From Omphiscola glabra (taxonomy: Eukaryota; Mollusca; Gastropoda; Lymnaeidae), in the NCBI GenBank assembly GCA_964017045.1, contig OZ024809.1:8145012-8209011 (forward strand): a DNA stretch of 64,000 nucleotides. Direction: 5' to 3'. Shown piece after piece: positions 26,380 to 61,764 of the stretch. The number at the start of each line of letters is the position of its first letter. Within the stretch, counting starts at the first letter, position 1. The notes beneath the pieces are model-generated. The model was not told where the DNA came from and ran no database searches. It saw only the letters and a list, made by a program, of their open reading frames with translations. The position numbers and the translations under genes are program-made.

Positions 26380-26568
26380 GAAGATGTAAAAAAAGATGGA
26401 AACAGGTTCAGTTGGTTGAAGTGCGGCTTTACTAATTTGTATTCATCAGTGGACACAATGGGCCCAGGTGAAGTCCAGCTGCCCCCTGATCTTCCAAACT
26501 GGTACTTGATAAAGGAACTGCTGTTAGACCTACATGGTCGACTCGTCAAAGAAAGCATAACTGATCAG
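26380..26568 (+). CDS. PARG-AKAP exon 1 of the visible set
   Basis: 63 codons, acceptor TTTTTTTTTCCCAG, donor GTAAGG. Encodes MGPGEVQLPPDLPNWYLIKE and a helix ending LVKESITDQ. An in-frame ATG at 26458 has A at -3 and G at +4 and may be the true start, the rest then being 5' UTR. Similarity to PARG is weak here; the join to the next exon is in phase 0. Confidence 0.7.
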
Positions 26569-35500: not shown

Positions 35501-38500
35501 TTTAAATTTCAATTTCTTAAAATTGAAATCACACTGAATCATACATCACCCCAAGTCTTGAACACAATATTTTGTTGCCATTTTAAAATAAACTGAGAGA
35601 AATGTATCACTTTGTGCCGGAATGCATTTAGTTGTAAGAGTCAGGAATGAGTTATATCTAAATCCTGAGATTAATATAAGAGTTAGTCCCCAAATGTTGC
35701 ATAACAATGACAATTATATCAAATGTACTTTTCTATAAAATTACATTGATATAATTAGGAATGTAAAAAAATTTTAAACTAAATAACAGCACAGACAAAA
35801 TAGATAATACTAATAATAATTCTCAAATGTCCAATTACTGAAAAATATTTAAAAGGTTTTATGAAATATTTCAATAAACAATCTTCAAAATTTCTTAAGT
35901 GTGATTGAAAAATAAGCAAACATTTAGCAGCAGGTGAAATGCAGAGTAAATTATTCAATAAATTCCATCATGTCATATTGTCATTTTCCTGAGCCTAATC
36001 TAAAAGCTAGAGTTGGACCTGGAGTGTTAGACATCATTTGAAAGAGAACTGAATGCTGTTTTTAGAAATATCTTAAAAATTCGTGTTGGAATCAGAATTT
36101 AAAAAAAAAAAAGTATTATTGAATAATTTATTTTAAGAAGTAAAAATGATGAGCAAAAATTATTGAAAATCTTTAAAAAACCACAAGTTTATAATCATCC
36201 ATCAAATGACATCCGAATAGCATTGAGTCTAATGGTACCCGGGTGCGAATGGCGGCGCTGCGTGTCTGGGTCCATTTTGACTAATGCTATTCGGATGTCA
36301 TTTGTGGTAGTTTATTTTAGTCTAAATGAAGAATTAAGTTACAAACATCTAGTCCATTCAATTATCTTTCACTTGATACCTCATTTGGTCTCACAAACCC
36401 AACAATAATATTTTAAATCATTTTTTAATCCCAACCTCTCACTTCCGGTACCCGGGTACCAATAGCCACTACGTTAAATAAAATCACTCCTATCATTATT
36501 AGACTAATAATAAATATCATGAATAATATATCCAAAAATCGGTTGAAATGTAAAATAAATAGCCCACTTTTTAGTAAAACACACAGCGGGATAAAGAAAA
36601 TCAGAGCACAGTCACAATGAATACAACCCAATCATATTTACACTTTACTGGGTAAATTATAACCCTGTTGCAATGGTTTTTAAATTTACAGGTTTAACAC
36701 CCTTTCAGCTTTTTGCCAAAATTATTGTTAATTCATGAGCTGGTACAATCGGCTCACAGGAGTCAAAGAGTTAGTTAAACATTGGTCACTATTATCAAGT
36801 CACCCAAGTTAGAGTGCAGTTAAGACATTGGACAGTTAAACATTGGTCAGTGTTACAAAGTCACCCATATAAATATACACATTTGTCATGCAACATGAGA
36901 TTTGTCATTTCTTGGAAGATATACAATTTTGACTTCACAGAAACGGTCTTTCATGTTAAAATATTTAAATTGTATTGAGGCAATCATTTAGGCAAATTTT
37001 TTTCAGTGACTTGCTTTCAATAATTACTATTTCTGCTACTGAGTATTTTAACATTTATTTTAAGATACCTACAGGTGTAATCTCAAAAAAAATTCAACTT
37101 ACATACAAGTGTGACCGTACATCCTTAAAGGTTTAATCTCCAAATACAATTCCACTTACAAAAAAAAGTGTGGCAGTATATTCCTACAGGTGTAATCTCC
37201 AAATACAATTACACTTACATAAATGTGTGGCAGTGCATTCCTACATCTCAAAATACAATTCCACTTATATACACCTGTGGCAGTACATGTGACATTTTAA
37301 TTGTTTCTCATATCAGATCAGAGACTATAATTTGAAATGTGTATTTCTGTAATTTCATATCTGTATTTCTGTAATTTCATATTTGTATTTCTGTAATTTC
37401 ATATTTGTATTTCTGTAATTTCATATTTGTATTTCTGTAATTTCATATTTCTATTTCTGTAATTTCATATTTCTATTTCTGTAATTTCATATTTGTATTT
37501 CTGTAATTTCATATTTGTGTTTTCAGGAGGAAATAAAATTCTGTGTGTGCCCAGAGTTGATGTCAGCCATGTTGTTCATGGAAAACATGGAGCACAATGA
37601 AGCCATATCAGTGTCAGGGTTTGAGCAGTTCTCCTGCTACACTGGCTACGCAGACTCCCTGGAGTTTGCTGGTCACTACAATGGGAACACTGCCAACAAG
37701 GTGAGCTATGCTGGACCTAACAATTGATGCAACGTACCCTCGTTCTTAAGGGGGGTGAGGTATTGATCAGTGTAGTCCACCATATTCGGATGCTGCTAAG
37801 ATTATATTGACAATTTTGGGGACATTTAGTTCCATGCTTCCCTACATATGCATGGTTCCCTACATATCCATAGTTCCTAAATATCCTTAGTTCATTACAT
37901 ACCTATGGTTCCCTATATATTCCTAGTTCCCGACATGTCAATAGTTGCTTAGATATCCATAGTTCCCAATGTATCCATAATTCACTTCATGTTTTCTTTC
38001 CATGAACTGTTCAGTTTCTTAAAACAAATGAAAAAATAAAAAAGCCAACATCGTACTGTATAAACGTCAGAAAATGTTTGTTTTTTTGGTCTTGTATATG
38101 ATAAGACCCACAGGATGGTAGCCATAGACGCCCTCTCCTACAGAGACGTCCCTACGCTGAGGCAGTATGAAGAGACGTTTGTCATGAGGGACCTCAACAA
38201 AGCATTGATTGGCTTCTGCAGGGTACCTGCCACTGATGATGGCCTAAGTATGGAGGATGAAGGTTTGCAAATTATTCAACTCTCCATTAACTATCCTTTT
38301 CTTCTTCTTTTCCTTTGGACACATCTTTGTTTTTAAACGTGTAGACAATGCATTGATAAGTGGTCTAACTCCATCCCAAGTTGCCTGCTTGTGTAGATGC
38401 CGAATTCTGTCTCCATCCCAAGTTGCCTGCTTGTGTAGATGCTGAATTCTGTCTCCATCCCAAGTTGCCTGCTTGTGTAGATGCTGAATTCTGTCTTCAT

Positions 38501-44500: not shown

Positions 44501-47500
44501 GCTGTTGAATCTGTACATGGGCTGTTGACTCTGTACATGGGCTGTCGACTCTGTGCATGGGCTGTTGACTGTACATGGGCTGTTGACTGTACATGGTCTG
44601 TTGACTGTACATGGGCTGTTGACTCTGTGCATATGCTGTTGACTCTTTGCATGGTCTGTTGACTGTACATGGGCTGTTGACTCTGTGCATAGGCTGTTGA
44701 CTGTCCATGGGCTGTTGACTCTTTGCATGGTCTGTTGACTGTACATGGGCTGTTGACTCTGTGCATAGGCTGTTGACTGTCCATGGGCTGTTGACTCTTT
44801 GCATGGTCTGTTGACTGTACATGGGCTGTTGACTCTGTGCATAGGCTGTTGACTGTCCATGGGCTGTTGACTCTGTCTCTGTACATGGGCTGTTGAATCT
44901 GTACATGGGCTGTTGACTGTCCATGGGCTGTTGACTCTGTCTCTGTACATGGGCTGTTGAATCTGTACATGGGCTGTTGACTCTTTGCATGGTCTGTTGA
45001 CTGTCCATGGGCTGTTGACTCTGTCTCTGTCCATGGTCTGTTGACTCTGTCTCTGTACATGGGCTGTTGAATCTGTACATGGGCTGTTGACTCTGTACAT
45101 GGGCTGTCGACTCTGTGCATGGGCTGTTGACTCTGTACATGGGCTGTTGACTCTGTCTCTGTACATGGGCTGTTGACTCTGTCTCTGTACATGTGCTGTT
45201 GACTCTGTCTCTGTACATGGGCTGTTGACTCTGTCTCTGTACATGGGCTGTTGACTCTGTCTCTGTACATGAGCTGTTGAATCTGTACATGGGCTGTTGA
45301 CTCTGTACATTTGCTGTTGACTCTGTACATGGGCTGTTGACTCTTTGCATGGTCTGTTGACACTGTCCATGGGCTGTTGACTCTGTCTCTGTACATGGGC
45401 TGTTGACTCTGTCTCTGTCCATGGGCTGTTGACTCTGTCTCTGTCCATGGGCTGTTGACTCTGTCTCTGTACATGGGCTGTTGAATCTGTACATGGGCTG
45501 TTGACTCTGTACATGTCAACAACAAATGGCGACCAATTCATGACTGAGAGGAAGAAAGCAGGGAAGAAGTGGAGGCATTCGTTTCAAATGCAGAAACATA
45601 GGACAGCGAGCCTTTCTTCCACATGTTGTTTTGGGAAACGTTGGATCACTACGTAACAGGATGGATGACGTGGGTTGTTTCTGTAAGGATTTCTATCAAT
45701 TTCGTATGAGCTCTTTAATGTGCCTGACAGAAACATGGCTTAACGAAACGTTACCAGATTCAGCAGTGGCACTGGACTAATTTAACATTTTCCGTGCCGA
45801 AGGAACAACCGACAGCATCAAATCTACTACTGTAGAATCAACAACGGAATAGTGAAACATGTAGTTTGTACACCAAACATGTAACTACCTTGCACCACTT
45901 TGCCGCCATTTTACCTACCTACGGAATTCACACAAACCTGTATCATCCTGAAAACCCGGAGATGGGGAGATGGAGTTCACGTGCGCCTAACAGGCAGCAG
46001 TGAGGCCTCTCGAACATCTAACATCGGATTTATTTTACGCGCTTCGAGCCTTTGGGGATGAAGCGTGATTTTTAAATAAACTTTATTATTATTATTACTC
46101 TGTGCATGGGCTGTTGACTCTGTACATGGGCTGTTGACTCTGTCTCTGTACATGGGCTGTTGACTCTGTACAAACTACACAACTATTTCTACCATGATAT
46201 TATTTGATAAAAGTTTTCTCTTTTTTTTTCAGATGGAAAAAGAGGGGCAGCAAATGTGGCGGTAGATGTCAAAGGAGGGACAGTCGATGTGGCAGCAGGA
46301 ATGGTGACAAGTGCCATCTGTGATGCCTTTCAAAAGGCATCAGAGCGTCAGCAGCAGTCAGTCATTTTAGACCAAGAACAAACACCAAAACCTAGTGACC
46401 ATAAGCATCACCAATCCCCGCCTCCTCATTTAAAACCACCATGCCTAGAAGTGGCAGAACCAGCCTCTGCCAAACTACCCGCCACTGCCCTATCAGCCTC
46501 TACCAAACTACCCACCACTGCCCTATCAGCCTCTACCAAACTACCTGCCACTGCCCTGTCAGCCTCTACCAAACCAACCACTGACACTGCCCTATCAGCC
46601 TCTACCAAACTAACCGCCACAACACTATTAGATTCTCATAAACAGCCAGCTTCCATCTCAGGACTCGATGCAGGGACAGTCATCTGGGTTCCTTTTGACT
46701 CTCCTTCAACATCATCACCAGCAATAGTTGATGCACCCCAAACACATGTGCCACATGCTGTTCCCATAGACCCTGCCACTGTGTTACGGACGTCACCCTC
46801 TGTTCATTCCTCTGATATTTCAAACACATTTGTTCCAGAACGTAGCATTTCTGATCATTTTAATTCTCACCCCGGCTCATCAGTCTCTCTTGAGCAATTA
46901 TCATCAACCACTTCTGTAACAATAACTCTTGTTTCTCAAGAGACACCCAGCATGCCCTGTGATATAAATGCAATGTCTAGATTAGAGTCCAACCACGCTG
47001 ACCAACAGATTCCCACTGCTGGATTTCCTTCACCCTTACACTCAAGTGCCTTGGCTAGTGACTCAGCTGTCAGACATGATTTTCTTGGGATGAGATTAGC
47101 TAGTGATATTCTTGGAAACTTAACAAAAATTACTTCAACTGCTGAAGGTGCCGAGACATCACTTCTGGCACATTCCGCTCAAGATGATGTGCCAGGCACT
47201 GGTACTAGACCAGTAGCTTCAGATTCATATTCAAAAGTAACACATTTTACAGTGGAGTTGCCCCAGTTGTCCTCATACAGCTTAGATCAGGATCTGTCTA
47301 TTCACTTTCACACACAACCTAATGAGGACTACAGTGGGCAAAGTACTACCTGCTGTTTAGATTCACCCGTGGTGATCTCAGAAGCATCAAAAGCTCTGCC
47401 TTCATTTCAAGCCGTACCGGCCCACCAGCCAGATGAGTCAAGGGGCTCACTGCCTTCATTACAAGATGCACCAGCCCACCATCCAAATGAGTCAAGGGGC

Positions 47501-50500
47501 TCACTGCCTTTATTACAAAACACACCGGCCCACCATCCAGATGAGTCAAGGGGCTCACTGCCTTCATTACAAGACACACCGGCCCACCAGCCAGAGGAGT
47601 CAAGGGGCTCACTGCCTTCATTACAAGACACACCGGCCCACCAGCCAGATGAGTCAAGGGGCTCATATTCTCCATTAGTTACTGATTCTCAGGACTACAA
47701 CAGCCCTATCTCCACAGATATGCTGTATGTCAATGTAGATAATCTTCACCCCAGGAAGTTTAGCATGACAGAAGAATTGGGGACAGCTAGCTTCGACTCG
47801 GCCTTGCTTGGGCCACCATCATCTTTATCCCCCCAGTCATCCTTGTCATCATCCAATGTCTCACCAAACACCTCTTTCACCCTCCCTGCCTACCATCAGC
47901 CAAGGAATGGGTCTAGCGATGTCCATGTTACAGCCGACTTTTTTATCCCTGATCTTGACAATCTGGCTGAGCAATTTCCACAACAGCAGCGGGGCTCAAG
48001 AGACTTTTATGGAGAGCTCAGAGAGTTCCTTAGCTCTTCCAGCTCAGGGACAAGAAGTTCAGGCTCTGGTGGTGGGCCAAATTCAAGCTCCAATTCCACA
48101 TGGGGTTCAAGGTCAGGGTCCATTTCCTCCCATGGCACCAATGGGTCTAGCAATGACTTCCTGGAGTTTTGGAACCACTTGAGACGTAGGAGCTCTCAAT
48201 TTAGTGACACCACATCGAGGAGGTCTAGTTCAAGTAAACACAGCTCAGATTTCAGCACTGACCTCGAAGTAAGAAAATATTCTTGTCATCACATATATAT
48301 TTTTTTTTAATTTATAAGATATCAATGCTTTAACATCATTATCCAATTTTATAAGTGCATGGTATTTGTGGATTTGATATGATCATATTTAATTTTTATG
48401 TTATTCAATTTATGCTTATCATAGAATTGTACAAATTTAGCTATTATAACCTTTATTGGCGTTCTCTTGAAAATATAAGTGGATTCAGCTTATTGTGTCC
48501 TGGTTCGGGAACGGGTTAAATTTAAGTTTGTATGATATATATGACAGGTTCCAAGCCCATTGAACAAAATGAACCATTGTAAAGAAAATTTCATGTTATC
48601 TGTGGATTTCATGAGAAAATTTGATAAAATTCATAGAAATAATATATTTTTTATGAAATGGTTGAAAACTATATTGCAGCAATTTAGGAACAAGCTTGTT
48701 TAAATATGGGACTAAATATCTGACTAAATATCTGACTAAATTGCTTTTAAAACATTATTAAAATGAATGGAAGAGTCAAATTTTGATTGGATCTTTATTA
48801 TTCGCCAACTTTGACAACCATTTACGGTACTAATATATTGCAAAACCACCACATATTATATGGTTGGAAAAGTCCTTACAATCTACACTTCCTGCTACTA
48901 TCATGGCCTAAGTTTCAGTAGTAAAAAGTCCTTACAATCTACACTTCCTGCTACTATCATGGCCTAAGTTTCATTAGTAAAAAGTCCTGACATTCTACAC
49001 TTCCTACTACTATCATGGCCTAAGTTTCATTAGTAAAAAGTCCTTAAAATCTACACTTCCTGCTACTATCATGGCCTAAGTTTCATTAGTAAAAAGTCCT
49101 TAAAATCTACACTTCCTGCTACTATCATGGCCTAAGTTTCATTAGTAAAAAGTCCTTAAAATCTACACTTCCTGCTACTATCATGGCCTAAGTTCAGTAG
49201 TAAAAAGTCCTGACATTCTACACTTCCTACTACTATCATGGCCTAAGTTTCAGTAGTAAAAAGTCCTGAAAATGTACACTTCCTACTACTATCATGGCCT
49301 AAGTTTCATTAGTAAAAAGTCCTGACATTCTACACTTCCTACTACTATCATGGCCTAAGTTTCATTAGTAAAAAGTCCTGACATTCTACACTTCCTACTA
49401 CTATCATGGCCTAAGTTTCAGTAGTAAAAAGTCCTTAAAATCTACACTTCCTGCTACTATCATGGCCTAAGTTTCAGTAGTAAAAAGTACTTAAAATCTA
49501 CACTTCCTGCTACTACCATGGCCTAAGTTTCATTAGTAAAAAGTCCTTAAAATCTACACTTCCAGCTACTATCATGGCCTAAGTTTCAGTAGTAAAAAGT
49601 CCTTAAAATCTACACTTCCTGCTACTATCATGGCCTAAGTTTCAGTAGTAAAAAGTCCTGACATTCTACACTTCCTACTACTATCATGGCCTAAGTTTTA
49701 GTAGTAAAAAGTCCTGAAAATGTACACTTCCTACTACTATCATGGCCTAAGTTTCATTAGTAAAAAGTCCTGACATTCTACACTTCCTGCTACTATCATG
49801 GCCTAAGTTTCATTAGTAAAAAGTCCTGAAATTCTACACTTCCTACTACTATCATGGCCTAAGTTTCAGTAGTAAAAAGTCCTTAAAATGTACACTTCCT
49901 ACTACTATCATGGCCTAAGTTTCAGTAGTAAAAATATATAGTAGATAATATTACCTAAATAATCTCCCAAGTCTTTCAGCACTGCTGTGAGCTATCCCAC
50001 CTCTCCCTATAGGGGACTGTTCACTTTGAGAACCACTGATCTAAAGGTATACAAGTGTGTAAAATAACTTTCAGGAGGAAAAAAACAATTATTAATGTCT
50101 TATATTTATGACCTTTTTGTTGATGTAGGAAATCTCAGAGAGCCTACAGAAGCACTGCCATGGTGTGATTGAGGAAGAAGGAGGCATTCTAACAATGCTA
50201 ACAGACTACGCCTCTCAGATGGTGACTTCAGCTGTGAGAAATGGGGTAGCCACTGGAGTCGACACGCTAGCTCAACCAGGCGACCAATCTCTTCTTGCCA
50301 GCGACCAGGAGACCCCTCAAGTGGACTTGTTCAGTCAGCCGGCCCATGTCCCAAAGAACGCCAGCACTCAACTGAAACATGGGAAGACATTCTCCAGGGC
50401 AGGGACTTTAGTGAGACAGGAAAAGGTCAACCTTGAAGTAGATGACACAGCATGCAAGATCATTCCTGGCCTCGAAGAGGAGCCCGAAAGAGATGAGTAC

Positions 50501-53500
50501 TCTCAGTCACAGGACTCACCACCAAAAAGTTTTTATGACTTTCATTTGAGATCAAGTCAACCACCAAATGAAAACTTAAGTTTGAAATCAAGTCAGCCAC
50601 CAAATGAAAACGTAAGTTTGAAATCAAGTCAGCCACCAAATGAAAACTTGAGTTTGAAATCAAGTCAGCCACCAAATGAAAACGTAAGTTTGAAATCAAG
50701 TCAGCCACCAAATGAAAACTTAAGTTTGAAATCAAGTCAGCCACATAATGAAAACTTGAGCCCAACAGTGGAAATCTCTGTTGTTTGTTCTGCTTCCATT
50801 CCGTCACCAAAACCATGTTCTTCAGCATCAAGCTTCTCTGTACTGTATTCCAGGAATGCTGGGAAAGGATACTGCCAACAAAGTGCAGATTCAGGTTTTG
50901 TGTCTATCCAGTCATCTGTGGCATCCATGTCACGCTTTAGAGATTTCCATGCTCCATCACCAGGTGTCACAGCCAGCGACCCTCCAGGTGTCACAGCCAG
51001 TGACCCGCCAGGTGTCACAGCCAGTGGCCAACCAGGTGTCACAGCCAGTGGTGACATGACAAGAAAGGTGGATGAAACCACCAGCACTGCACCTGAAACT
51101 TACCATTGTAAAACTCGTAACATTCCAGTGTTCAAACTTGAAGCTACAGCACATCATAAATACCTTACTGACGACAAGGTGCCTGAAATAAAGAAAGACT
51201 GCACGGCAGCTAGATCTACATCAACCATTTCAAAGCCTAATATTTCTGTCCATTATGTTAACATGCCTCAAGAGGCCGTAAAATTTGACATGAAACAATC
51301 TTCAACTCAGAAGATTCACCGTACCTCTCATGCAGCAAGGGTTACCTCCCATGGAACTTCTAAAGAGATTCCCCCAAAATCAATCAAGTCTGGTACATCA
51401 AAGTCACCAGAGTGGCCAGCCGTCCCCTCGAAGCAAACCAAAGTGCCGAAGCCTGCTGAGAGGGATGTCGAGGCCGTGTCTGCCAGCTCTACGGAGTCGA
51501 TCCCTCATCTGTCTAGTGGAGCCAGTGGGCCCACCAAGTCTTCAGGCATCCCTAAGTTTAGAAGCTCATCAAAGAAATCGTACGATCCTGCCAAGTGCTC
51601 AGTGCCTGATTATTCTCATGGCAGGGGCAGGCAGGCAGATAAACCGGATGTGCTGCCTTGTTCTACCGACAAAGAGAAAGTCAAGATGGGCAAGAGTAAA
51701 AAGCAGAGTGCACGGGAACGAGATGAAAAGCTGTTCAGGGCACACAGAAGTCGGTACGTCTTCTCTGATGTCGCAGCACCACCTCGTGAGAGGAGGTCAC
51801 GGCACCCCAAGGAATTCACACCAGAGTCCCCACACAAGAGGCAAGGCAGGGGAGGTTCCAAGAAGAATGAGGAGAAGAGGCGGCCCAAGCACACAGAAGA
51901 ACCTGTGATAGAACAAGCCAGAGACTTCACAAAATCACCCAAATTTATTCGCTTTGTCAACACCCTGGCAGAGATCTCCTTGAGTCAAGCTGTCCTAGAA
52001 GGGGCTGAGATAGTCTCCCAGACGCCATTTTTTCAAGAGGAAATTTCAGACGAGGTTTACAATTGGTTTGCAAATAAGATCATCACTGAAGTATTTTTCC
52101 ACGTGATCTCAGAGATTGAAACCCGGGATTATGACCAGGACAGGCACTCGTCCTTGCATCTTGAGGAAATCGGAGCTTCTGGGGGAGTGGCCTCGGCCTT
52201 GGATAGCCAGGCAGACTCAGTCCTGCAGCCTCTGGGAGCTAGTGCAAGGGACAGTTTTGCCGATGAGGCAGGGTCGGCCCGGCCAAAATGTAAAGGTATT
52301 TTACCATCAAAATCAGACACGGCTGCCTCTGGTGTCAGTTTGAAGTCTGCGACTGGGCTGCAGAGGTCATCTGGTTCTTTGAAAATGGTTAAATTTAAAG
52401 AAGGTGTTGAAGAAGATCCAGGATGTTCTTCATCCAAACTAGCATATCCTCAGGCATTATACAGTAACCATTCTAAGGCAACAGCATTCCAGAGGATGGC
52501 CAGCAGCAGCATTCCTGTTCCAGTGAGGAGAAGAAGCAGTTTAGATCTTCCCCTGACATCACCCCCCACCTCAAGGACCAGTGGCGATCTTTCAGCTTTT
52601 CACACAGCAATGCCGCAGACCACGCTTCAGCCTATCAGTGTCCCCGGACATAGGCGGAGAAGTCTGACCAATGCAGAGTTGTCTCTTGATGCTTACCAGG
52701 CAGCCGCATCCATTGTTAACCAAGTTTTCCAGACCATATCAGACAGCATGGATGTCCAGGCTTTGAGTCCAGGGTCCTCCTGCTATCATGGGACCATTTC
52801 CTCATCTGATACAGGGGCTCATTCCACAGGTGAGAAGGATAGTTTTTTATTTGATGGTAGGCATGGCTATTTGTAGAGGGCTGAAACTTAGGTTCTGAAT
52901 TGCTTTGAGTACTGGACTATTATGATAAGGTCGGCTTTTGACTGACGCAACTCACAAGTTATGTTTACAACACAAACACCCCTTGGAACTTACACACAAT
53001 TAGGATTCTTATTACTAGACCAGAGATAAAAGATTGGTATATAAGTGAGATTTCTACATTGGACTTTAATCTTTACAGAAGAGCCTCTACAAGCCATTCA
53101 ATACAAATATAGACAAATCCAATGGATAAAATGGCGGGATATTTATGTATCCCTACTCAGTCCTACTTTAATCTGGGTAAATGCATGAATTAATTTGGTA
53201 ACCCAGGGAGGACGGGCACTAAGAATAAATTATTATATAGTACTTGGGCATCTTAAGCTTCTCATTTTTGTTGTTTAAAACCAATTATGATCAGTTTATT
53301 AATAAGACTTAATGTGTACATGAAACATATAGGTGAAGCCATAATAATAGTTATACAGAATACAAATGCAAACGTTTCAGCTAATATCTTCATAAGCTCA
53401 ACAGAAGAAAAAAATTCTTATATGTCTAGTATAAATTAATTGTACATAATGTATATACCGGTGTGTATATATATGTGCGTGTATATATATTTAAATCCTA

Positions 53501-56500
53501 CCTGAACATAAAAGAAAATAAAAAGAATGGTCACAAGTCCCTAACAAGAACAAAGCTCATAAAAATGGAAAGAAGTGGGTGGAAGTTAAATTATAACAAC
53601 CAGACAGGAAAAAGCACTACAGTTATGTACACTTGTGAATTTGGTTTATACCATATGGAGTCAACATACCAAGTCAGTTTAGAAATCCTTTGAGGCTTGT
53701 TCTCAGTCGATTTCTGCGACAAACCAGTCAGACCAATTCAATTCCTTAATAATAAAAGTACATCTGTAAGTAGGCCACAGCATGACAGATTTGCCAGTTG
53801 AGAATTACAGTTTTTAAAAAGTCATGTACTTGAAATGTATTGGTTTCAAATTGATTTTTATTCGATAATGTGGCAGCAATGCCTAGTTCAGTTGATCAAA
53901 AATAATAAAACCTTTTTTTCTTTTTCAATACATACATTTAAACTTTTGGTGAGATTCACACTTAGTGGGACATGTAGACCAAATTGTATTTGATGTTATC
54001 CCATGTGAGCGAGCACATGCTATCCAAGAGTTTAGTAGAGTTCTAATCATGGAACTTAAAGTAACCTTACATTTTTTTCCAGGAAGTAGAATTCACAGTC
54101 ACTATGACAGCTTTGCCTCCAATATTTTCTCAAGTTCATCAATGAAAGCTGCAGAGAGCCCGCGGCGGGCTCGTCGATCTGTCTCCCCGAGCATCGGTCT
54201 TTTCTTCAGGAAACCCATGAGTCGGGAAACGCTGACCAATGCTTACTTGAAGGTTGACCACAGCCCACAGATCAAGACCTATGAACGGCGCAGCAGTGAA
54301 CCGTGTCAGACGAGCGTCACACTCTCCCTGCAGGCTTTCAATAACAACAAGTTCAATGGCAGGACCGTTGAGGAGAAGATGAAGAAGCTGTCCAGGACGG
54401 ACGATGATATCGGGTGTGGGAAAACATGGCGCAGGGGCTCACTGGATGGCTACTCGTTTGATCAGAGGAGAAACTCGTGTGGATTTAAAGACCCGGTCCT
54501 GTCCAGGTTTGCTGAGGAACTAATGAAGGCGGACACATCAGTGCCAGAACTGGTGATAGTTGGTTCACATGCAAGTTCCTCTTCAACAGGTCAGTGCCAT
54601 TTAAGTTTCATTTTTTTACGTTAAAAACAATTAAAGTGTCATTCATTGCATTTAAGCAAAGTGTCATTCATTACATTTAAACAAAGTGTCATTCATTATA
54701 GTTAAGCAAAGTGTCATTCATTAAATTTAAACAAAGTGTCATTCATTACATTTACACAAAGTTTTATTCATTACATTTAAACAAAGTGTCATTCATCACC
54801 AAAATTTAGTGAGTCGTTTGCATAAATTAGCACCCATGAATATTTATTTCTCTGAATTAAAAGTATTGTAGCTCCTCTCAGTTACATATTTTGTCATCCT
54901 TGTGATCAACTTTCTTTTTGTCTAACCATTATCTTGTCATCAGTTTGGTCAAGTTTTTTCTTATAGATCCATTTTTTGTGTGGTTAAGGCTCAAGACGAA
55001 GCAGTGTGAGTGCATTTAGGGATTCTACCCTGGCTAACCTGGAGAATGAGCTGCTCAACACAAGTTTCACTAGGTCAGTCAGAAAACTTTTCTTAAATTT
55101 ATACTTTTGACTTCTTTCTTTCCATCCGAATTTTTTAAAATTTACATTGTAAATACCAGCTTGGTATTTTAATGCTTACATTGTAAACACCGGGTCATTA
55201 ATTTTGTATTTTAAGAATAATATCACATAACTTGTTCCAACAATGTCCCCCGCCCAGTGCCTGCAGCGTTTCCCAGTCATCAAGGTCACACCGGAGACAC
55301 CCACAGCTGGACAGATCTCGCAGCCGTGACTCCAGGCAGGGCAAGTCCGACAGCTCGGAGACTGAGTACTGGTTCCCACCACCCAAGTTTGTAGGAGATG
55401 AATTTCAACTGGAGTACAACAGACAGCACAGCCAGGAGGAGTTGCAGGTAGGGACCTTTAACATAATCTGTTATGTGCTGCACGTAGAGGGCTTTAATTG
55501 AATCTATTCTGTGCTAGCATGAGTACATTGGGGCCCATTTCTAGCCTTCTAATTTCAGTAGGTTAGATCAGATGTATAACTTAAGCATTAAATTATTGTG
55601 ATGAAATCATAGCTCACCAAAGTATAAGTAACATTCAGTCAGAAGTATTTGTAGGATTTATAATGTAAAAATAACTCCTTCATAATGTTTTTAAAAATTG
55701 ATTCTTCCGTTCAGGACTATGCCAGCTACTTTGCTGGTCGTGTAGTTCAAGAGGCAGTGTGTGTACTCCGATGTGACCCGGATTACATGAGCAGGGAGGA
55801 GCAGGATGTGGACATGTTTGCAGAGAACCTTACTGACCAGATAATGCGGGACGCCCTGATGGCCACCGTCCAAACCATCAGCTCCGGCTGCCCCACTGAA
55901 GCCAGCGGCAATAGTGGCAGCGAGGACAAACTGATGTCTGCCGTGTGGTCGATGTCAACATCCAACAAGCCTGGACAGGGTGGCGTGTATGGATCTCCAA
56001 CGTCTCGTGCACTTTCAAAACCCAGAAGCATTCCACAGAGAAAAGATTCCGTTCCAGACATTTCTGGTAAACCCCATTCATCCTATAGCCACAGGATAAG
56101 GTTTGGTCCTAATGGTGAAAGGAGGTCATCATCTTTCAGCGTTCCCCCACCACAGCAGTACCTTCATCCTACATTCAAGCCCACCTCTGAAGCTTGGGGG
56201 GGTGCCAGGCCTAAGAGCTCTCGCCCCAGTCAAACTGCTGGGTCACACTTGACACCAACTCAAACCAAAAGACATTCCTCACCTTCACCTTTTCAGTTTT
56301 GTTCATCTGTGTCTTACACATCGCCATCAACTTTACAAGTACCATCAAAAATGTCCCCTCGCCAGTACCTCAGTCTTGAAATGAGGAGCAAGTCAGAGTC
56401 AGGGCCCAGGTGCTCCAACAGACATCTTAGTGAAAGTCAGCATTGGGTAAGGTATTATAGATGTCCAACATACATCTCATTGAAAGTCATTATTGTGTAA

Positions 56501-59500: not shown

Positions 59501-61764
59501 TATGTCTACTATAAAAAAAGATTTTTTAGATATAATGTTGAAATTGATATTTAATTTTTGTGTGTCCCAGAAAAAGCCTTTGAGGAAAAAGAGAGCTGAG
59601 TCCCATTCCAGTGTCAGCTCAGTAGAGCTTGGATCAGATGAAACCTGCTCTTCTTTTCTGTCATCATCCTCTTCATCTTCCCTCTCAACATCATCCTCCT
59701 TGGAGAGTATTGGCCCGGTCAGCCATGCGGACACATTCGCTTCTCACATTCCCACTAAACGGGCGCAGCAGACTGGTCATTCTGGGCCACAGCAGCCATC
59801 AAATCCTCAGGCAAAGAGAAGTCGGGAGGAGAAGTCTGATGACCGGGCAGAGAATACGAGGGACCTAGAGCAGAGTGTTGAAAAGTTTGCAGACAATCTC
59901 TGCAGTCATGTTGTAACAGAGGCCCTGCAGCAATGCAAGAAGAACAAATGGCTTCGAGTGAGTGCTTTTTTCCTCTTCACGTTCAAACAGCTGTTGTATT
60001 ACACAAACTGTGGTGTTCCAGGATATTTGTCCTTAGCAGATATTTGATATCTTTGGGCTTTTTGGACACTATGGTACCTCTACTTATAGTGACACAATTT
60101 ATGTCATCGCATGGTACCATAAAGTACATCATACTGTTTTTTGAACATTTTTTTCCTCCCTTGTCACAATCTGTCACAAATTTTTGACCGCCCTCCCAGA
60201 AATAGGTCACTCTTTCAAACTAAAACTTTTAAAAAAATTTAACAACTAATTTTAGATTGATTTTTAATTAGTTGTTAAAGACACTTCACTTTTAAACTAT
60301 TTAATTTATAAAAGTGACATCTTCTGTCAGAAAACATCCATCACAACAGAAAGTTAAACATCATTGTCAATTTCAGGTTTTATAAGTATGATAAAAAATA
60401 TAATAACTGTGTGAAGTCACATATGATCTCTATCCTTTACCCACTCGAAAATTATAACACCTTCTTAGACCCCCCTCCCTACCTCCAGAATGTGACATAC
60501 TTTATGGACGGCCCCCATGACATATGAAGATGGTTAGACTGCAGCTGCAAAGCTGATTATCAGACAGTGTTTGTACATGTTTGGTTCTGATTAAACGAGA
60601 TGCCTATAACAATGTCCTTAAATGTTCCCATGCAAATCATCATGTCTCTGTATGAATGAACTGATTTAACTATGTCCTTTAATGGTCTCATGCAAATCGT
60701 TATGTCTCTGTATGACTGAACTGATTTAACTATGTCCTTTAATGACCTCATGCAAATCATTATGTCTCTGTATGACTGAACTGATTTAACTATGTCCTTT
60801 AATGGTCCCATGCAAATCATCATGTCCCTGTATGACTGAAGTAGTTTATTTGTGAAAAACTGGAGATTTTTGTGTGTCTTGTTTCAGTTTGTGTCTTACC
60901 GGCGGCCAATAGCCACAGGGAACTGGGGATGTGGTGCTTATCAGGGCAATCCTCAGCTCAAGTTTGTCATGCAGTGGATTGCTGGAAGTGTTGCTAGGAG
61001 CCCACTCTTGATTTATTACTCATTTGGTGATCCGGCATTGACACAGGTAAATTGATGTGCTGAGATATTATCAGACATTGACACAGGTAAATTGATGGAC
61101 TGATATATTATCAGACATTGACAGAGGTAAATTGATGGATTGACATATCAGACATTGACAGAGGTTAATTGATGGACTGACATATTTTCAGACATTAACA
61201 CAGGTAAACTGATGGACTGATAAATTATTAATAATTTCATGAGTGAATTCAACAGGGTTATTAATTATGACCCCCCAGCTGGGAATGACCCCAGACCAAA
61301 ATGTAACAGTTAAGTACAAGAAATGTTTCAATGACATGTTCCAATGATGCTATTGTGACGCTATTGTGGTGCCATTGTGATGCTATTGTGATGGAACACC
61401 CTAATAACGCAAAGATTTAAATTGAGGAGTTGAACTTGTTTATTAGTTATAAAATCATGTTTGCTTTTCAATCTGTTGTTCTCTTCCAACGAATCTCTAG
61501 ATTCAGGATGTGACCAATATGATGTCGGGGCTGACGGTCGGTCAGCTTGCGTCCACCCTCAGGGAGTACTGTAACTGGGTTTGTTTTCACTCAACACCAT
61601 CCTCGTTAGCATCGTCCCACCAGTCCTCATCAAAAACGCCAACGGGATCTCATTTACCATTGGGATCTCATTCACTGTGGCAAGATCAACGAAACTCGCA
61701 GCTTCCCCAGCCTCTCTTTGATTTTCTTTTGGAAAAGTTTTCACAGCGTGATGCCAAGAGATGA
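26380..61764 (+). CDS. PARG catalytic domain split by a ~2,200-residue AKAP-like scaffold (17 exons)
   Basis: Exons: 26380-26568, 27485-27851, 29254-29395, 29804-29903, 34538-34657, 34994-35050, 37527-37700, 38106-38262, 46233-48268, 50129-52829, 54083-54589, 54989-55073, 55258-55447, 55715-56446, 59571-59957, 60888-61046, 61501-61764. All are GT-AG with phases matching at all 16 junctions, for 8,367 nt in total. Residues 1-435 are the PARG helical part and macrodomain core (DFANQSIGGG, the GGG-X7-QEE catalytic signature, YTGYA, VAIDAL, LNKALIGF). Residues 2649-2788 are the PARG C-terminal part (RPIATGNWGCGAY, YYSFGD). PARG hydrolyses poly(ADP-ribose) chains. The middle (about 436-2648) has no PARG similarity. 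It is Ser/Pro-rich with repeated RII-type amphipathic helices and RRxS sites, as in A-kinase anchoring proteins. The first coding exon was not found; ATG 26458 has a good Kozak context and could be the start. Two separate overlapping genes are less likely, because the PARG half before 38262 is incomplete without the distal exons. Confidence 0.9.
26963..27143. mobile_element. hAT-like MITE, CAGGCCTG family, copy 1
   Basis: Starts CAGGCCTG and ends CGGGCCCTG; flanks CTCTAATC and CTCTGATC match 7 of 8. The internal sequence is shared with 39021-39204. Lies in the first visible intron of the PARG-AKAP gene. Confidence 0.8.
27485..27851 (+). CDS. PARG-AKAP exon 2: PARG helical region
   Basis: Residues 64-185. 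Encodes the alpha-helical accessory part of PARG: WYGMLKYLKSI and FLYFLLPSIIKMALRIEDL (family form: FxxVLPxIAxLALxLP). A Ser-rich loop (SSSTSSSS) precedes it. Exits at phase 1. Confidence 0.88.
28154..29053. mobile_element. MITE with an internal minisatellite
   Basis: Ends CAGGGTTTCCCAACCT and AGGTTGGGAAATCCTG are inverted repeats; flanks ATGTAAAG and GTGTATAG agree at 6 of 8 bases. The interior is dominated by a 30-bp tandem array (about 28335-28815, about 16 copies, CAGTTTGACTAAGTCTCACA core, with a higher-order block of variant units repeated twice). Lies in the intron between exons 2 and 3. Confidence 0.75.
29254..29395 (+). CDS. PARG-AKAP exon 3
   Basis: Encodes LSRQFVCSVVACFFLCLF (family: LSQxQxASLLAxAFFCxF) and MNIVNFTTFFKHL. 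The donor is read as TT/GTACGT at 29395, which gives phase 2 and fits the next exon. The last few residues depend on that choice. Confidence 0.9.
29804..29903 (+). CDS. PARG-AKAP exon 4
   Basis: Encodes SQVSKLRCILHYFECVIERG, matching the PARG segment xKLRCIxHYFxRV. Ends in phase 0 before GTAAGC. Confidence 0.93.
29985..30315. repeat. 39-bp minisatellite, ~8 copies
   Basis: Units with CAGTGACTGAATGTGTACAT in the intron after exon 4. The 39-bp period keeps a plus frame open; no coding evidence otherwise. Confidence 0.9.
30340..31350. repeat. 38-bp minisatellite, left part (~26 copies)
   Basis: Units with GAATTAGTCATATCACCATA and GCTGATCAGTGAACA. The array resumes at 32753-33205 after a LINE insertion. 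Confidence 0.96.
31353..32752 (-). mobile_element. 5'-truncated CR1-like LINE inserted in the 38-bp array
   Basis: Reverse-transcriptase frames on the minus strand: GVPQGSVLGPVLF and MFADDTQL (32701-32129), then RMDYCNALMVGLP (32098-31706), with frameshifts between pieces. The 3' tail is a (TTA)n run at 31353-31373. A related 3' end occurs at 46040-46098. Orientation is antisense to the host gene. Confidence 0.92.
32753..33205. repeat. 38-bp minisatellite, right part (~12 copies)
   Basis: Same unit as 30340-31350, with a local variant (TGATCATTGAACAA) spread over several neighbouring copies. Confidence 0.95.
33525..34430. repeat. ~25-bp minisatellite split by a solo LTR
   Basis: Degenerate units CTGTCCACTGGTTATGTGGG at 33525-33662 and 34281-34425, on both sides of the LTR at 33668-34275. 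Confidence 0.85.
33668..34275 (-). mobile_element. Solo LTR, 608 bp
   Basis: Begins TGTGGCG and ends CCGTGACA; ATGAG is duplicated on both sides (33663-33667 and 34276-34280). A TATA-like box on the minus strand (TATAAAAGGAGAGAC, about 34037-34050) suggests antisense orientation. No internal retroelement sequence, hence a recombination product. Confidence 0.85.
34538..34657 (+). CDS. PARG-AKAP exon 5
   Basis: 40 codons including CPVKVFSKGVIEDSGAEVIQ, the family strand of the form LPxLxVxxxGxIExxGxxxLQ that leads into the VDFAN motif. The upstream 4.6-kb intron carries a LINE, a solo LTR and several minisatellites. Confidence 0.93.
34994..35050 (+). CDS. PARG-AKAP exon 6: first half of the catalytic signature
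   Basis: 19 codons: VDFANQSIGGGVLGRARVQ. This carries the GGG and the Gln of the PARG signature GGG-X(6-8)-QEE. The two catalytic Glu residues lie in the next exon, 2.5 kb away. Confidence 0.96.
35051..37320. other. PARG-AKAP intron 6, mostly plain AT-rich DNA
   Basis: Separates GGG...Q from EE of the catalytic signature. Holds a perfect inverted repeat (36203-36224 with 36283-36304, CAAATGACATCCGAATAGCA arms, 58-bp spacer) and a small ~57-bp degenerate repeat at 37070-37290. No gene seen. Confidence 0.7.
37325..37520. repeat. 22-bp T-rich minisatellite next to a splice acceptor
   Basis: Units TATTTCTGTAATTTCATATT, about 9 copies, ending 7 bases before the acceptor of the exon with the catalytic Glu pair. 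Confidence 0.93.
37527..37700 (+). CDS. PARG-AKAP exon 7: catalytic Glu pair and YTGYA
   Basis: Begins EEIKF, completing the QEE catalytic motif, then CPELM, NEAISVSG, and FEQFSCYTGYADSL with the ADP-ribose-contacting Tyr region. A 22-bp T-rich minisatellite (about 37325-37520) runs directly into the acceptor. Confidence 0.96.
37830..38910. repeat. Small repeats around exon 8
   Basis: A degenerate 22-bp repeat (CATATCCATAGTTCC) at about 37830-37985; a 42-bp minisatellite (CCATCCCAAGTTGCCTGCTT core, about 7 copies) at 38370-38685; and three 20-bp units at 38850-38910. Confidence 0.88.
38106..38262 (+). CDS. PARG-AKAP exon 8: end of first PARG segment
   Basis: Encodes MVAIDALSYRDVP and VMRDLNKALIGFCRVPATDD, conserved in PARG just before the ATGNWGCGAF strand. 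Exits at phase 1 (GAA G/GTTTGC). In canonical PARG a short loop follows; here the next exons encode the AKAP-like insert. Confidence 0.93.
39021..39204. mobile_element. hAT-like MITE, CAGGCCTG family, copy 2
   Basis: Ends CAGGCCTGCACAACT and GTTGTGCAGGCCTG are inverted repeats; CTATAAAT is duplicated at 39013-39020 and 39205-39212. The LTR retrotransposon starts 4 bp further on. Confidence 0.92.
39730..41180. other. Interior of the LTR element without coding capacity
   Basis: AT-rich, with short repeats around 40300-40500 (CACATTACCCAGTGTAGG type). It lies where pol would sit in an autonomous element. Confidence 0.75.
41181..42020 (-). CDS. Retrotransposon zinc-knuckle (nucleocapsid-like) protein with degenerate protease-like tail
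   Basis: A 279-residue frame. Residues about 27-130 carry five CX2CX4HX4C knuckles (e.g. CYRCHRAGHMARYC, CFRCYESGHLAREC) plus one incomplete one, the nucleic-acid-binding signature of gag nucleocapsid. A Lys/Glu-rich linker follows. The tail (about 190-279, VQVFRHYLCSDIVVRK ... VYDVIVG) resembles a retroelement aspartic protease fold, but where the family has its Asp-Thr/Ser-Gly active site this copy has no such triplet, so it should be inactive. No capsid-like or polymerase region. Confidence 0.85.
   Translation of the reverse strand: MTQSWCRQTEDRRSAVYRQVRRWDASLCYRCHRAGHMARYCTNIRRCYRCYSTDHLARDCCNERQCFRCYESGHLARECNRPRVCFSCLRPGHIAVRCRFQRRCYKCHQQGHVLRNCPVVSDRRDRNCSFCEVKTAATCFRLGKEKKCEEKKGKSLVKKENNRSRVIKSGEEKISDSEDEIIIGGISIGIGVKKSVYGLVGDKRVQVFRHYLCSDIVVRKDLVDGSRLTGERCTVVLMNGARLKSEKAIVTISTPYVSGNVKVVCIPDIVYDVIVGQVV
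43040..43625. repeat. 47-bp minisatellite, ~12 copies
   Basis: Units with TTATCCTTTGTCTGAAGACA and GTGTCAGGCTGGTGCAGAAC at exact 47-bp spacing. Confidence 0.96.
43690..45514. repeat. 18/27-bp composite minisatellite, ~1.8 kb
   Basis: Units built on TTGACTCTGTACATGGGCTG with 18-, 24- and 27-bp forms arranged in higher-order blocks. All three minus-strand frames stay open for more than 600 codons, so none is evidence of a gene. Continues at 46099-46170 after a LINE insertion. Confidence 0.95.
45515..46098 (+). mobile_element. Internally deleted CR1-like LINE in the minisatellite
   Basis: Begins with endonuclease-like coding (LMCLTETWLNETLPDSAVAL at about 45716-45775), then jumps to the 3' end (GCCTTTGGGGATGAAGCGTG) and a (TTA)n tail. 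The 3' end matches the LINE at 31353-32752. The reverse-transcriptase part is missing. Confidence 0.82.
46233..48268 (+). CDS. PARG-AKAP exon 9: start of AKAP-like insert
   Basis: Residues 436-1114. Acceptor TTTTTTTTTCAG, phase 1 in and phase 0 out. An amphipathic helix at about 453-470 (VDVAAGMVTSAICDAF) fits the RII-binding spacing. The rest is Ser/Thr/Pro-rich and probably disordered. It contains two coding repeats: 11 residues x about 5 (ALSASTKLP type, 46466-46620) and 18 residues x 5 (SRGSLPSLQDTPAHQPDE type, 47405-47670). A weaker helix candidate is RLASDILGNLTKI (about 47088-47135). PKA-type RRRSSQFSD and RRSSSS lie near the end. Confidence 0.9.
48269..50128. repeat. Intron 9 with a 56-bp minisatellite, ~18 copies
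   Basis: The array at about 48870-49935 has units with TAAAAAGTCCTTAAAATCTA and CTATCATGGCCTAAGTTTCA. The remainder of the intron is AT-rich with no element recognised. Confidence 0.94.
50129..52829 (+). CDS. PARG-AKAP exon 10: central AKAP-like scaffold
   Basis: Residues 1115-2014, phase 0 in and phase 1 out. RII-type helix candidates: MLTDYASQMVTSAVRNGV (about 1137-1154), FVNTLAEISLSQAVLEGA (about 1722-1739), YNWFANKIITEVFFHVIS (about 1758-1775) and AYQAAASIVNQVFQTI (about 1969-1985). Coding repeats: a 12-residue SSQPPNEN type x about 6 (50545-50757) and PGVTASDP x 4 (50960-51050). RRRSSLDL (about 52524) and RRRSLTNA (about 52655) are PKA-consensus sites next to the last helix. A long basic, Ser-rich stretch lies between. 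Confidence 0.9.
52830..54082. other. Intron 10 of PARG-AKAP
   Basis: No repeat array or open frame of note; some TA dinucleotide runs near 53460-53495. Confidence 0.6.
54083..54589 (+). CDS. PARG-AKAP exon 11: basophilic phosphosite cluster
   Basis: Residues 2015-2183, phase 1 to 1. Contains RRARRSVSPS, RRSSEPC, RRGSLDGY and RRNSCGF, all R-R-x-S-like, and a short helix LSRFAEELMKA. No family domain was recognised. Confidence 0.88.
54625..54800. repeat. 25-bp tandem repeat, ~7 copies
   Basis: Units ACAAAGTGTCATTCATTACA in the intron between exons 11 and 12. Confidence 0.9.
54989..55073 (+). CDS. PARG-AKAP exon 12
   Basis: 85 nt, phase 1 to 2: GSRRSSVSAFRDSTLANLEN and a short tail. Like exon 11 it opens with G-S-R, hinting at an old exon duplication or just a favoured splice context. 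Confidence 0.82.
55258..55447 (+). CDS. PARG-AKAP exon 13
   Basis: 190 nt, phase 2 to 0. RS-rich start (SSRSHRRH, DRSRSRDSRQ), then a more ordered YWFPPPKFVGDEFQLEYN segment just before the next helix exon. Confidence 0.85.
55715..56446 (+). CDS. PARG-AKAP exon 14: two RII-type helices
   Basis: 244 codons, phase 0 to 0. Starts with DYASYFAGRVVQEAVCVL, followed by DVDMFAENLTDQIMRDALMA; both align with the AKAP heptad pattern x(L/F)A-xx-(I/V)(V/M)-xx-A(L/V). Then a basic Ser/Pro-rich tail with ERRSSSFS. Confidence 0.88.
56875..59075. repeat. 91-bp minisatellite, 24 copies
   Basis: Exact 91-bp period (core TATGTGTTTCTGGCTGGGTG, ACTATCCAGCTGAAGCCTTG). Copies differ at three recurring sites (ACACATTC/ACGCATTC, CCTTGG/CCGTGG, CATAGA/CACAGA). 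Every copy opens the same spurious 74-codon frame. Lies in the intron between exons 14 and 15. Confidence 0.97.
59571..59957 (+). CDS. PARG-AKAP exon 15: last RII-type helix
   Basis: 129 codons, phase 0 to 0. A Ser-rich acidic start, then SVEKFADNLCSHVVTEALQQ (about residues 2621-2640), the clearest RII-binding-like helix of the set by its fit to known AKAP helices, ending KKNKWLR just before PARG sequence resumes. Confidence 0.9.
60060..60515. mobile_element. Possible MITE in intron 15
   Basis: ACCATAAAGTACATCA near 60108-60124 and GTGACATACTTTATGGACGG near 60492-60511 are inverted and resemble MITE ends; C-rich patches lie inside. No target duplication was resolved. Confidence 0.45.
60590..60845. 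repeat. 60-bp tandem repeat, ~4 copies
   Basis: Units with AACTATGTCCTTTAATGGTC and CATGCAAATCATCATGTC, ending about 45 bp before the acceptor of exon 16. Confidence 0.9.
60888..61046 (+). CDS. PARG-AKAP exon 16: PARG sequence resumes
   Basis: 53 codons: RRPIATGNWGCGAYQGNPQL and LLIYYSFGDPALTQ. This matches the conserved PARG segment ATGNWGCGAFGGD...LVYxTFGD. The usual Phe-Gly-Gly-Asp is Tyr-Gln-Gly-Asn here. Confidence 0.95.
61047..61240. repeat. ~45-bp degenerate repeat after exon 16
   Basis: Four to five copies of CAGACATTGACACAGGTAAA-type units. The first unit overlaps the end of exon 16 and its donor, so copies of the CACAGGTAAA donor context recur downstream as decoy splice sites. Confidence 0.8.
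61501..61764 (+). CDS. PARG-AKAP exon 17: C-terminus and stop
   Basis: 87 codons plus TGA at 61762. LTVGQLASTLREYCN corresponds to the PARG LTVGxLxxLLxxY helix, and LFDFLLEKF to its last helix. A Ser-rich linker separates them. The acceptor is ATCTCTAG. Confidence 0.92.
   Translation: MQDVTNMMSGLTVGQLASTLREYCNWVCFHSTPSSLASSHQSSSKTPTGSHLPLGSHSLWQDQRNSQLPQPLFDFLLEKFSQRDAKR

Follow-up and report, generated by a model that had tools for sequence, protein, structure and literature searches.

A snail PARG gene interrupted by an AKAP11-type scaffold, a probable ancestral form of AKAP11

The stretch of DNA analysed here (the window) comprises 64,000 nucleotides of contig OZ024809.1, positions 8,145,012 to 8,209,011 of the forward strand, from assembly GCA_964017045.1 of the pulmonate snail Omphiscola glabra (745 Mb, 37 contigs). 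It holds a plus-strand gene in which the catalytic domain of PARG, the hydrolase of ADP-ribose polymers, is interrupted by a long scaffold of the AKAP11 type. All coordinates are positions within the window. A first-pass annotation had placed this fusion at 38106..61764; the gene extends further 5', its frame opening at 26458 and closing with a stop at 61764, and its 17 exons encode 2,761 residues. All 16 junctions of the spliced model are GT-AG with compatible phases, and no stop codon occurs ahead of its end. The single frame of the first-pass annotation is retained, while its length of 2,788 residues is not, a difference presumably due to divergent borders of some upstream exons. Features of the gene are listed below, with their basis in brackets.

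26458..26568, + strand: exon 1, start codon (tblastn with Bulinus and Physella N-termini; splice sites)
27485..27851, + strand: exon 2, PARG helical domain begins (tblastn, splice sites, Pfam)
29254..29392, + strand: exon 3, PARG helical domain; donor 29392 is weak and was picked for phase (tblastn, splice sites, Pfam)
29804..29903, + strand: exon 4, PARG helical domain (tblastn, splice sites, Pfam)
34538..34657, + strand: exon 5, macrodomain begins (GVIEDSG) (tblastn, splice model)
34994..35050, + strand: exon 6, VDFAN...GGGVLGRARVQ (sequence, splice model)
37527..37700, + strand: exon 7, opens with the catalytic Glu-Glu pair of QEE, then YTGYA (splice model, alignment)
38106..38262, + strand: exon 8, DLNKALIGF, end of the PARG N-half; phase 1 donor 38262 (splice model)
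46233..48268, + strand: exon 9, scaffold insert with the block RRRSSQFSD...RRSSSSKHSSDFSTDLEE (splice model, insert alignment)
50129..52829, + strand: exon 10, scaffold insert with candidate anchoring-type helices (splice model, pattern scan)
52067..52108, + strand: candidate anchoring-type amphipathic helix FANKIITEVFFHVI, in exon 10 (pattern scan)
52382-52396, + strand: PP1-type candidate KMVKF, in exon 10 (pattern)
54083..54589, + strand: exon 11, conserved blocks YERRSSEP and GFKDPVLSRFAEELMK (splice model, insert alignment)
54989..55073, + strand: exon 12, scaffold insert (splice model)
55258..55447, + strand: exon 13, scaffold insert (splice model)
55715..56446, + strand: exon 14, scaffold insert with two candidate anchoring-type helices (splice model, pattern scan, insert alignment)
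55718-55759, + strand: candidate anchoring-type helix YASYFAGRVVQEAV, in exon 14 (pattern scan)
55817-55858, + strand: candidate anchoring-type helix FAENLTDQIMRDAL, in exon 14 (pattern scan)
59571..59957, + strand: exon 15, final scaffold exon (splice model)
59886-59927, + strand: candidate anchoring-type helix FADNLCSHVVTEAL, in exon 15 (pattern scan)
60888..61046, + strand: exon 16, PARG C-half with RPIATGNWGCGAYQG and LKFVMQWIAGS; phosphate loop at 60927-60944 (splice model, Pfam)
61501..61764, + strand: exon 17, end of the PARG C-half, LFDFLLEKF tail, stop (splice model)

The macrodomain is not continuous in the snail protein. In the N-half (exons 1-8), Pfam identifies the helical domain PF20811 (77.1 bits, cut-off 25.6) and the macrodomain PF05028 (PARG_cat_C; 164.1 bits, cut-off 26.3) over profile positions 2-151 of 207; in the C-half (exons 16-17), PARG_cat_C returns at 59.8 bits over positions 161-206 of 207. 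The break spans only about nine profile positions, and an insert of 2,232 residues (exons 9-15) lies between the halves. Exons and profile positions bear out the earlier observation that PARG sequence ends with DLNKALIGF at 38262 and resumes at 60888, as RPIATGNWGCGAY in exon 60888-61046, with seven exons (46233-59957) in agreeing phases between, all joined at GT-AG sites.

The catalytic motif GGG-X6-8-QEE, with its upstream Asp and Asn, is kept in the window (VDFANQSIGGGVLGRARVQEEIKF). Residues of exon 6 align with Asp737, Asn740, the Gly-rich motif and Gln754 of human PARG; the roles of the Asp, the Asn, the Gly-rich motif and QEE are taken from PMC3519477. The QEE pair is conserved in all 27 split-type proteins, that is, the window protein and 26 relatives described below; three rows escaped the first pattern, which matched an earlier FAN, and QEE is present in each of them. 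GNWGCG is invariant across a 23-row alignment.

The database search for relatives with both PARG halves and the insert, suggested in the first-pass annotation, retrieved 4 proteins with the snail C-half and 28 with the C-half of Branchiostoma, itself included. The closest of them is from Lymnaea stagnalis, with a main match that spans 1,933 alignment columns at 88% identity. Both PARG domains are found in Physella acuta (2,503 residues), Bulinus truncatus (2,657 residues) and Branchiostoma (2,014 residues). In 26 of the 31 distinct proteins, the N-half ends with NKAxxGF and the C-half starts just ahead of GNWGCG, with 755-2,150 residues between, an agreement that is more than chance. The set of 27 used below consists of these 26 (from P0001-P0031) and the window protein. 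By species, the five excluded are a L. stagnalis model, two Mya models, an amphioxus model and a rotifer protein; by reason, they are P0001 (without N-half), P0023 and P0024 (N-half anchor not found), P0030 (two ordinary PARG domains) and P0031 (no GNWG). As a separate observation, P0030, from the rotifer Adineta ricciae, carries its two ordinary PARG domains in tandem without an insert (PARG_cat_C, 517.5 bits in total).

Named carriers include bivalves, Haliotis, pulmonate gastropods, nemerteans, Lingula, starfish, sea cucumber, sea urchin, Saccoglossus and amphioxus; all relatives are predicted proteins, and 5 of the 26 carry no species name. These carriers represent at least six phyla, which, except for the recorded assignment of Lineus, we take to be Mollusca, Nemertea, Brachiopoda, Echinodermata, Hemichordata and Chordata. 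In a tree of the PARG part, 22 of the 27 split-type proteins are separated by one branch (support 100/98, recovered in all 200 bootstrap trees) from six ordinary sequences: mouse, Drosophila, two rotifer domains and two partial snail copies (144 and 119 residues). Judged from these sequences, the split gene is at least bilaterian in age.

Ordinary PARG (human 4B1G, mouse 4FC2, Drosophila 8ADJ) shares with the split protein the helical domain, the macrodomain, QEE and GNWGCG, but unlike the split type it has no insert between GF and ATGNWG, and it falls on the opposite side of the tree. The snail genome also encodes this form, in two tandem genes on the minus strand of contig C2 (~34.6946-34.7003 and ~34.7367-34.7400 Mb), one of which, copy B, has GGD in place of GGG in the Gly-rich motif. 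In these copies the stretch from AYCAF to TGNWGCG lies within one exon, and their intron is found just ahead of AYC. These copies therefore retain no intron at the position of the insert into which it could simply have been dropped.

Alignment of the 27 inserts, with block conservation scored on 15 of them, revealed blocks common across phyla: WxxxFRRRSSNLSD...RRSS, SSDFSSEFEEYYEN, RRSSEP and GFxDPxLSRFAEELMK, together with several helices of the (F/Y)AxxLxxxIIxxAL type. The WxxxFRRRSSNLSD, SSDFSSEFEEYYEN and RFAEELMK blocks show most clearly in lophotrochozoans and only weakly in echinoderms and amphioxus. A helix pattern modelled on the helices of the window itself occurs 2-7 times per insert in 27 of 27 (shuffle mean at most 0.08), four times in the window and four times in human AKAP11; on this pattern, the window helices are candidates for the type that anchors regulatory subunits of PKA. 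A FFAT-like motif, [DESN][FY]xTA, lies in the first 90 residues of 19 of the 27 inserts (shuffle mean 0.18 of 27, maximum 2 in 500 rounds), with only one further copy in 30,058 insert residues; permitting Ser at the fourth position raises the count to 21 of 27, a figure without its own control. The FFAT-like motifs published for AKAP220 (DFVTA-E) and its paralogue (DFLTASE) in PMC3261905 fit this pattern, and in SPHKAP a change of the Phe or the Thr abolished co-localisation with VAP (PMC10460453). Looser FFAT patterns match elsewhere in the window insert, for example SFDSALL, and were not counted.

Pfam searches of six of the seven insert exons (all but exon 12) gave only sub-threshold matches, to SmAKAP (0.057), DUF3446 (0.003) and KIAA1328 (0.02); SmAKAP recurs below its cut-off in 6 of 21 relatives scanned. 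PP1-type motifs are seen in three pulmonates (KMVKF, KVVKF and KMVTF), not in Haliotis at the same block, and are not relied on. Separately, the window protein has 16 sites of the PKA type, [RK][RK]x[ST] (shuffle mean 7.2, maximum 17). Of 7 further split-type proteins counted, 6 have more such sites than any of their shuffles and Mercenaria equals the maximum; human AKAP11 shows no excess (4 versus 3.5).

AKAP11 is a scaffold associated with psychiatric risk in humans. When a profile of 29 split-type C-halves (the 27 with P0023 and P0024) is compared with one of 16 sequences drawn from 120 of 631 AKAP11 matches, all mammalian, the C-terminal 100 residues of AKAP11 pair with the C-half over 103 columns (hhalign 98.5%); the aligned part takes in DPQL..LQW..AS and the LFD.LLE tail. 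The phosphate loop GNWGCGAFGG is gone from AKAP11, which has LLITNIDMEPCTVD where split-type proteins have IATGNWGCGAFGGD. The AKAP11 C-terminal profile scores 19-44 bits on 24 of the 27 split-type proteins and 7-12 bits on three pulmonates, the window included; on ordinary PARG it gives 15.5 (mouse), 9.1 and 1.5 (rotifer domains) and -2.9 (Drosophila). AKAP11 (AKAP220) resembles the split family in its C-terminal PARG half, a FFAT-like motif in its N-terminal region and anchoring-type helices, but has neither a recognisable PARG N-half nor the phosphate loop.

The relation of the C-half was published in 2024 for AKAP3, AKAP4, AKAP11 and SPHKAP, with the remark that the N-terminal portion appears to be lost (PMC11377751); our comparison was made with mammalian AKAP11 sequences. 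That work describes the residues contacting PAR, the ADP-ribose polymer, as conserved in these AKAPs, whereas in AKAP11 we find the Gly-rich phosphate loop replaced. Also in 2024, the lamprey gene g7740 (PARG_homolog; PARG_cat and AKAP_110) was listed among the novelties of cyclostomes from domain shuffling (PMC11788884). By this table entry alone, it resembles the split gene in holding both families; it is presented as new in cyclostomes, but the invertebrate proteins suggest an inherited architecture.

Taken together, the open spliced frame, an architecture shared by predicted proteins of at least six phyla, the separate PARG clade, the shared insert blocks, the kept catalytic residues and the joint predicted fold in one relative have been established computationally. 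We consider it likely that the window holds the snail representative of an ancient gene, dating back at least to the bilaterians, with an AKAP11-type scaffold inside a loop of the PARG catalytic domain, and this split gene is probably the ancestral form of AKAP11. The first-pass proposal that an anchoring scaffold was inserted in the loop with both halves kept is supported by the single-protein relatives and the shared insert blocks. Its suggestion that the fold could close with the insert looped out gains support from the AlphaFold model of a hemichordate relative, in which both halves superpose jointly on human PARG over 383 residues and are predicted to pack together.

In the proposed mechanism, the two halves would close into a PARG domain and the insert would hang out as a long, mostly disordered tether, whose repeated amphipathic helices would bind dimers of PKA regulatory subunits. 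In most of the lineages examined, though not in pulmonates, the protein would be tethered to VAP on the endoplasmic reticulum by a phosphorylatable FFAT-like motif located shortly after the N-half. The outcome would be a hydrolase or reader of ADP-ribose polymers physically coupled to PKA at contacts of the endoplasmic reticulum. In jawed vertebrates, loss of the N-half and decay of the C-half would have left AKAP11 and, going by the published relation of the C-halves, SPHKAP, AKAP3 and AKAP4 as well.

Two alternatives concern the gene itself. An independent AKAP gene could be nested in an intron of a normal PARG gene, the two never forming one protein. The large intron ahead of the scaffold block (38263-46232) fits such an arrangement, as do the L. 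stagnalis model P0001 (2,068 residues), which begins inside the insert without an N-half, and an alternative donor at 38222 (AGG/GTACCT, phase 0), which is in frame with 60888 and would give an insert-free PARG of a predicted 535 residues. Nevertheless, the spliced insert has no stop of its own and is in phase with both PARG halves, the 26 relatives are predicted as single proteins with identical joins, and the ordinary PARG copies elsewhere in the genome mean that this gene need not provide plain PARG. Direct splicing of 38262 to a PARG exon and a separate scaffold gene with its own start and stop, which the first-pass annotation had named as outcomes contrary to a fusion, find no place in the model: the insert is entered in phase 1 and left in phase 0, so that a direct junction of donor 38262 with 60888 is out of frame, and the frame of the full model stays open through both joins. 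An internal start is possible (the first Met of the exon 9 frame is codon 24), and unspliced read-through past exon 15 reaches a stop after 29 codons. We therefore regard nested genes as very improbable; a nested gene, a chimera and an assembly error were set aside, the architecture being conserved in other genomes. It is also unlikely that one gene yields both a short PARG and the long PARG-scaffold protein by alternative splicing. Donor 38222 joins 60888 in frame with a loop of about ordinary length, but it is weak by eye, and the 535-residue PARG is a guess.

Two further alternatives concern origin and activity. The insert and the middle of AKAP11 could be unrelated, both being disordered with similar helices, so that only the C-half is shared. 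The whole-insert profile is indeed weak on AKAP11 (rat 22.2, human 4.3 and elephant -3.8 bits, against -4.2 for rotifer ordinary PARG), but reversed and shuffled AKAP11 score -18 or lower, and the strongest partial matches have E values of 4e-6 to 6e-5, compared with 1.3e-3 at best for reversed sequences; the partial matches in rat AKAP11 are ordered from the FFAT motif to the helices. Furthermore, DFVTAFE is the one place in AKAP11 matched by a profile built on the FFAT region (E 1.9e-6 to 5.8e-6, with 1.8 as the best value among reversed controls), and it lies where the scaffold begins, in AKAP11 as in the split proteins. We think an unrelated insert quite unlikely. The split PARG domain could also be a dead enzyme that persists because it reads ADP-ribose or caps the scaffold structurally. 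The insertion ends just ahead of the phosphate loop, which mammalian AKAP11 has lost altogether; the tip of this loop is altered in the window (GAYQG instead of GAFGG), and Bulinus has GGC in place of GGG. The conservation of QEE in all 27 proteins and of GNWGCG across the 23-row alignment would, however, be difficult to account for if the active site were not under selection, and we find a dead enzyme somewhat doubtful. That the split protein is an active PAR hydrolase around a PKA and VAP scaffold, coupling ADP-ribose/NAD state to cAMP at endoplasmic reticulum contacts in many invertebrate lineages, with AKAP11, SPHKAP, AKAP3 and AKAP4 as decayed descendants, is a tentative proposal that we hold to be possible.

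Besides the truncated L. stagnalis model, the altered loop tip and the weak whole-insert scores, several observations weigh against the reading of an old gene with an AKAP11-type scaffold inside a PARG catalytic domain. The snail gene is a prediction from genomic sequence. The AKAP11 profile gives the C-half of the window 7.2 bits, less than it gives mouse PARG (15.5). Pfam AKAP_110 (cut-off 25 bits) has no match in the parts of the window scanned and three in 21 relatives, all below the cut-off; a search of the snail's own genome with it returned nothing, and shows nothing, its control being silent too. A remnant of the PARG N-half was sought in the N-terminus of AKAP11 and not found (hhalign probability 0.06). 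The FFAT-like motif is absent just after the N-half in the window and two other pulmonates, and also, under the patterns used, in Asterias, Mya and Lingula. The helix and FFAT patterns were devised after the sequences were seen, and the rows are related, so the counts are not independent. In the hemichordate model, the Gly-rich loop ahead of QEE (residues 186-196) has a predicted local distance difference test score (pLDDT) below 50.

In the open-access literature, a scope that leaves out most subscription papers and all bioRxiv preprints, we found no description of the split gene; already known are the AKAP C-half/PARG relation and the lamprey gene discussed above. The split protein would represent a surviving, expressible full-length form behind the published remark on N-half loss (PMC11377751), and the lamprey gene (PMC11788884) may be inherited instead of new. 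A 2025 review counts AKAP220 among the anchoring proteins first appearing in vertebrates (PMC12203939); our data argue for an older origin, in which the bilaterian ancestor already carried an AKAP11-type scaffold within an ADP-ribose hydrolase. If the bifunctional reading is true, the C-terminal domain of AKAP11, SPHKAP, AKAP3 and AKAP4 would be the relic of an enzyme. The split protein also makes it possible to examine directly whether a physical link between PAR metabolism and PKA once existed.

At 61036-61228, the 3' end of exon 16 and the splice donor that follows it (GACACAG/GTAAATTG) recur as a 40-base minisatellite, placing about five near-copies of this donor in a row, and a 22-base tandem repeat of about nine copies (37328-37522) nearly reaches the acceptor of exon 7, which starts at 37527. 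In-frame coding minisatellites occur in the scaffold exons at 46461-46620 (33-base unit), 47396-47665 (54) and 50545-50757 (36); these stretches seem fast-changing, since the Bulinus scaffold carries a different repeat (HTQDMPQEMGRSA). The intron ahead of exon 15 contains 24 copies of a 91-base repeat, 98% alike (56885-59070); each of the three forward frames there repeatedly holds an open stretch 80 residues long. Reading frames resembling mobile elements, with CCHC zinc knuckles, reverse transcriptase, a BED zinc finger and DUF6451 among their features, lie in or near the gene at 41181-42041 (-), 32129-32731 (-), 15124-16173 (+) and 13190-13879 (-).
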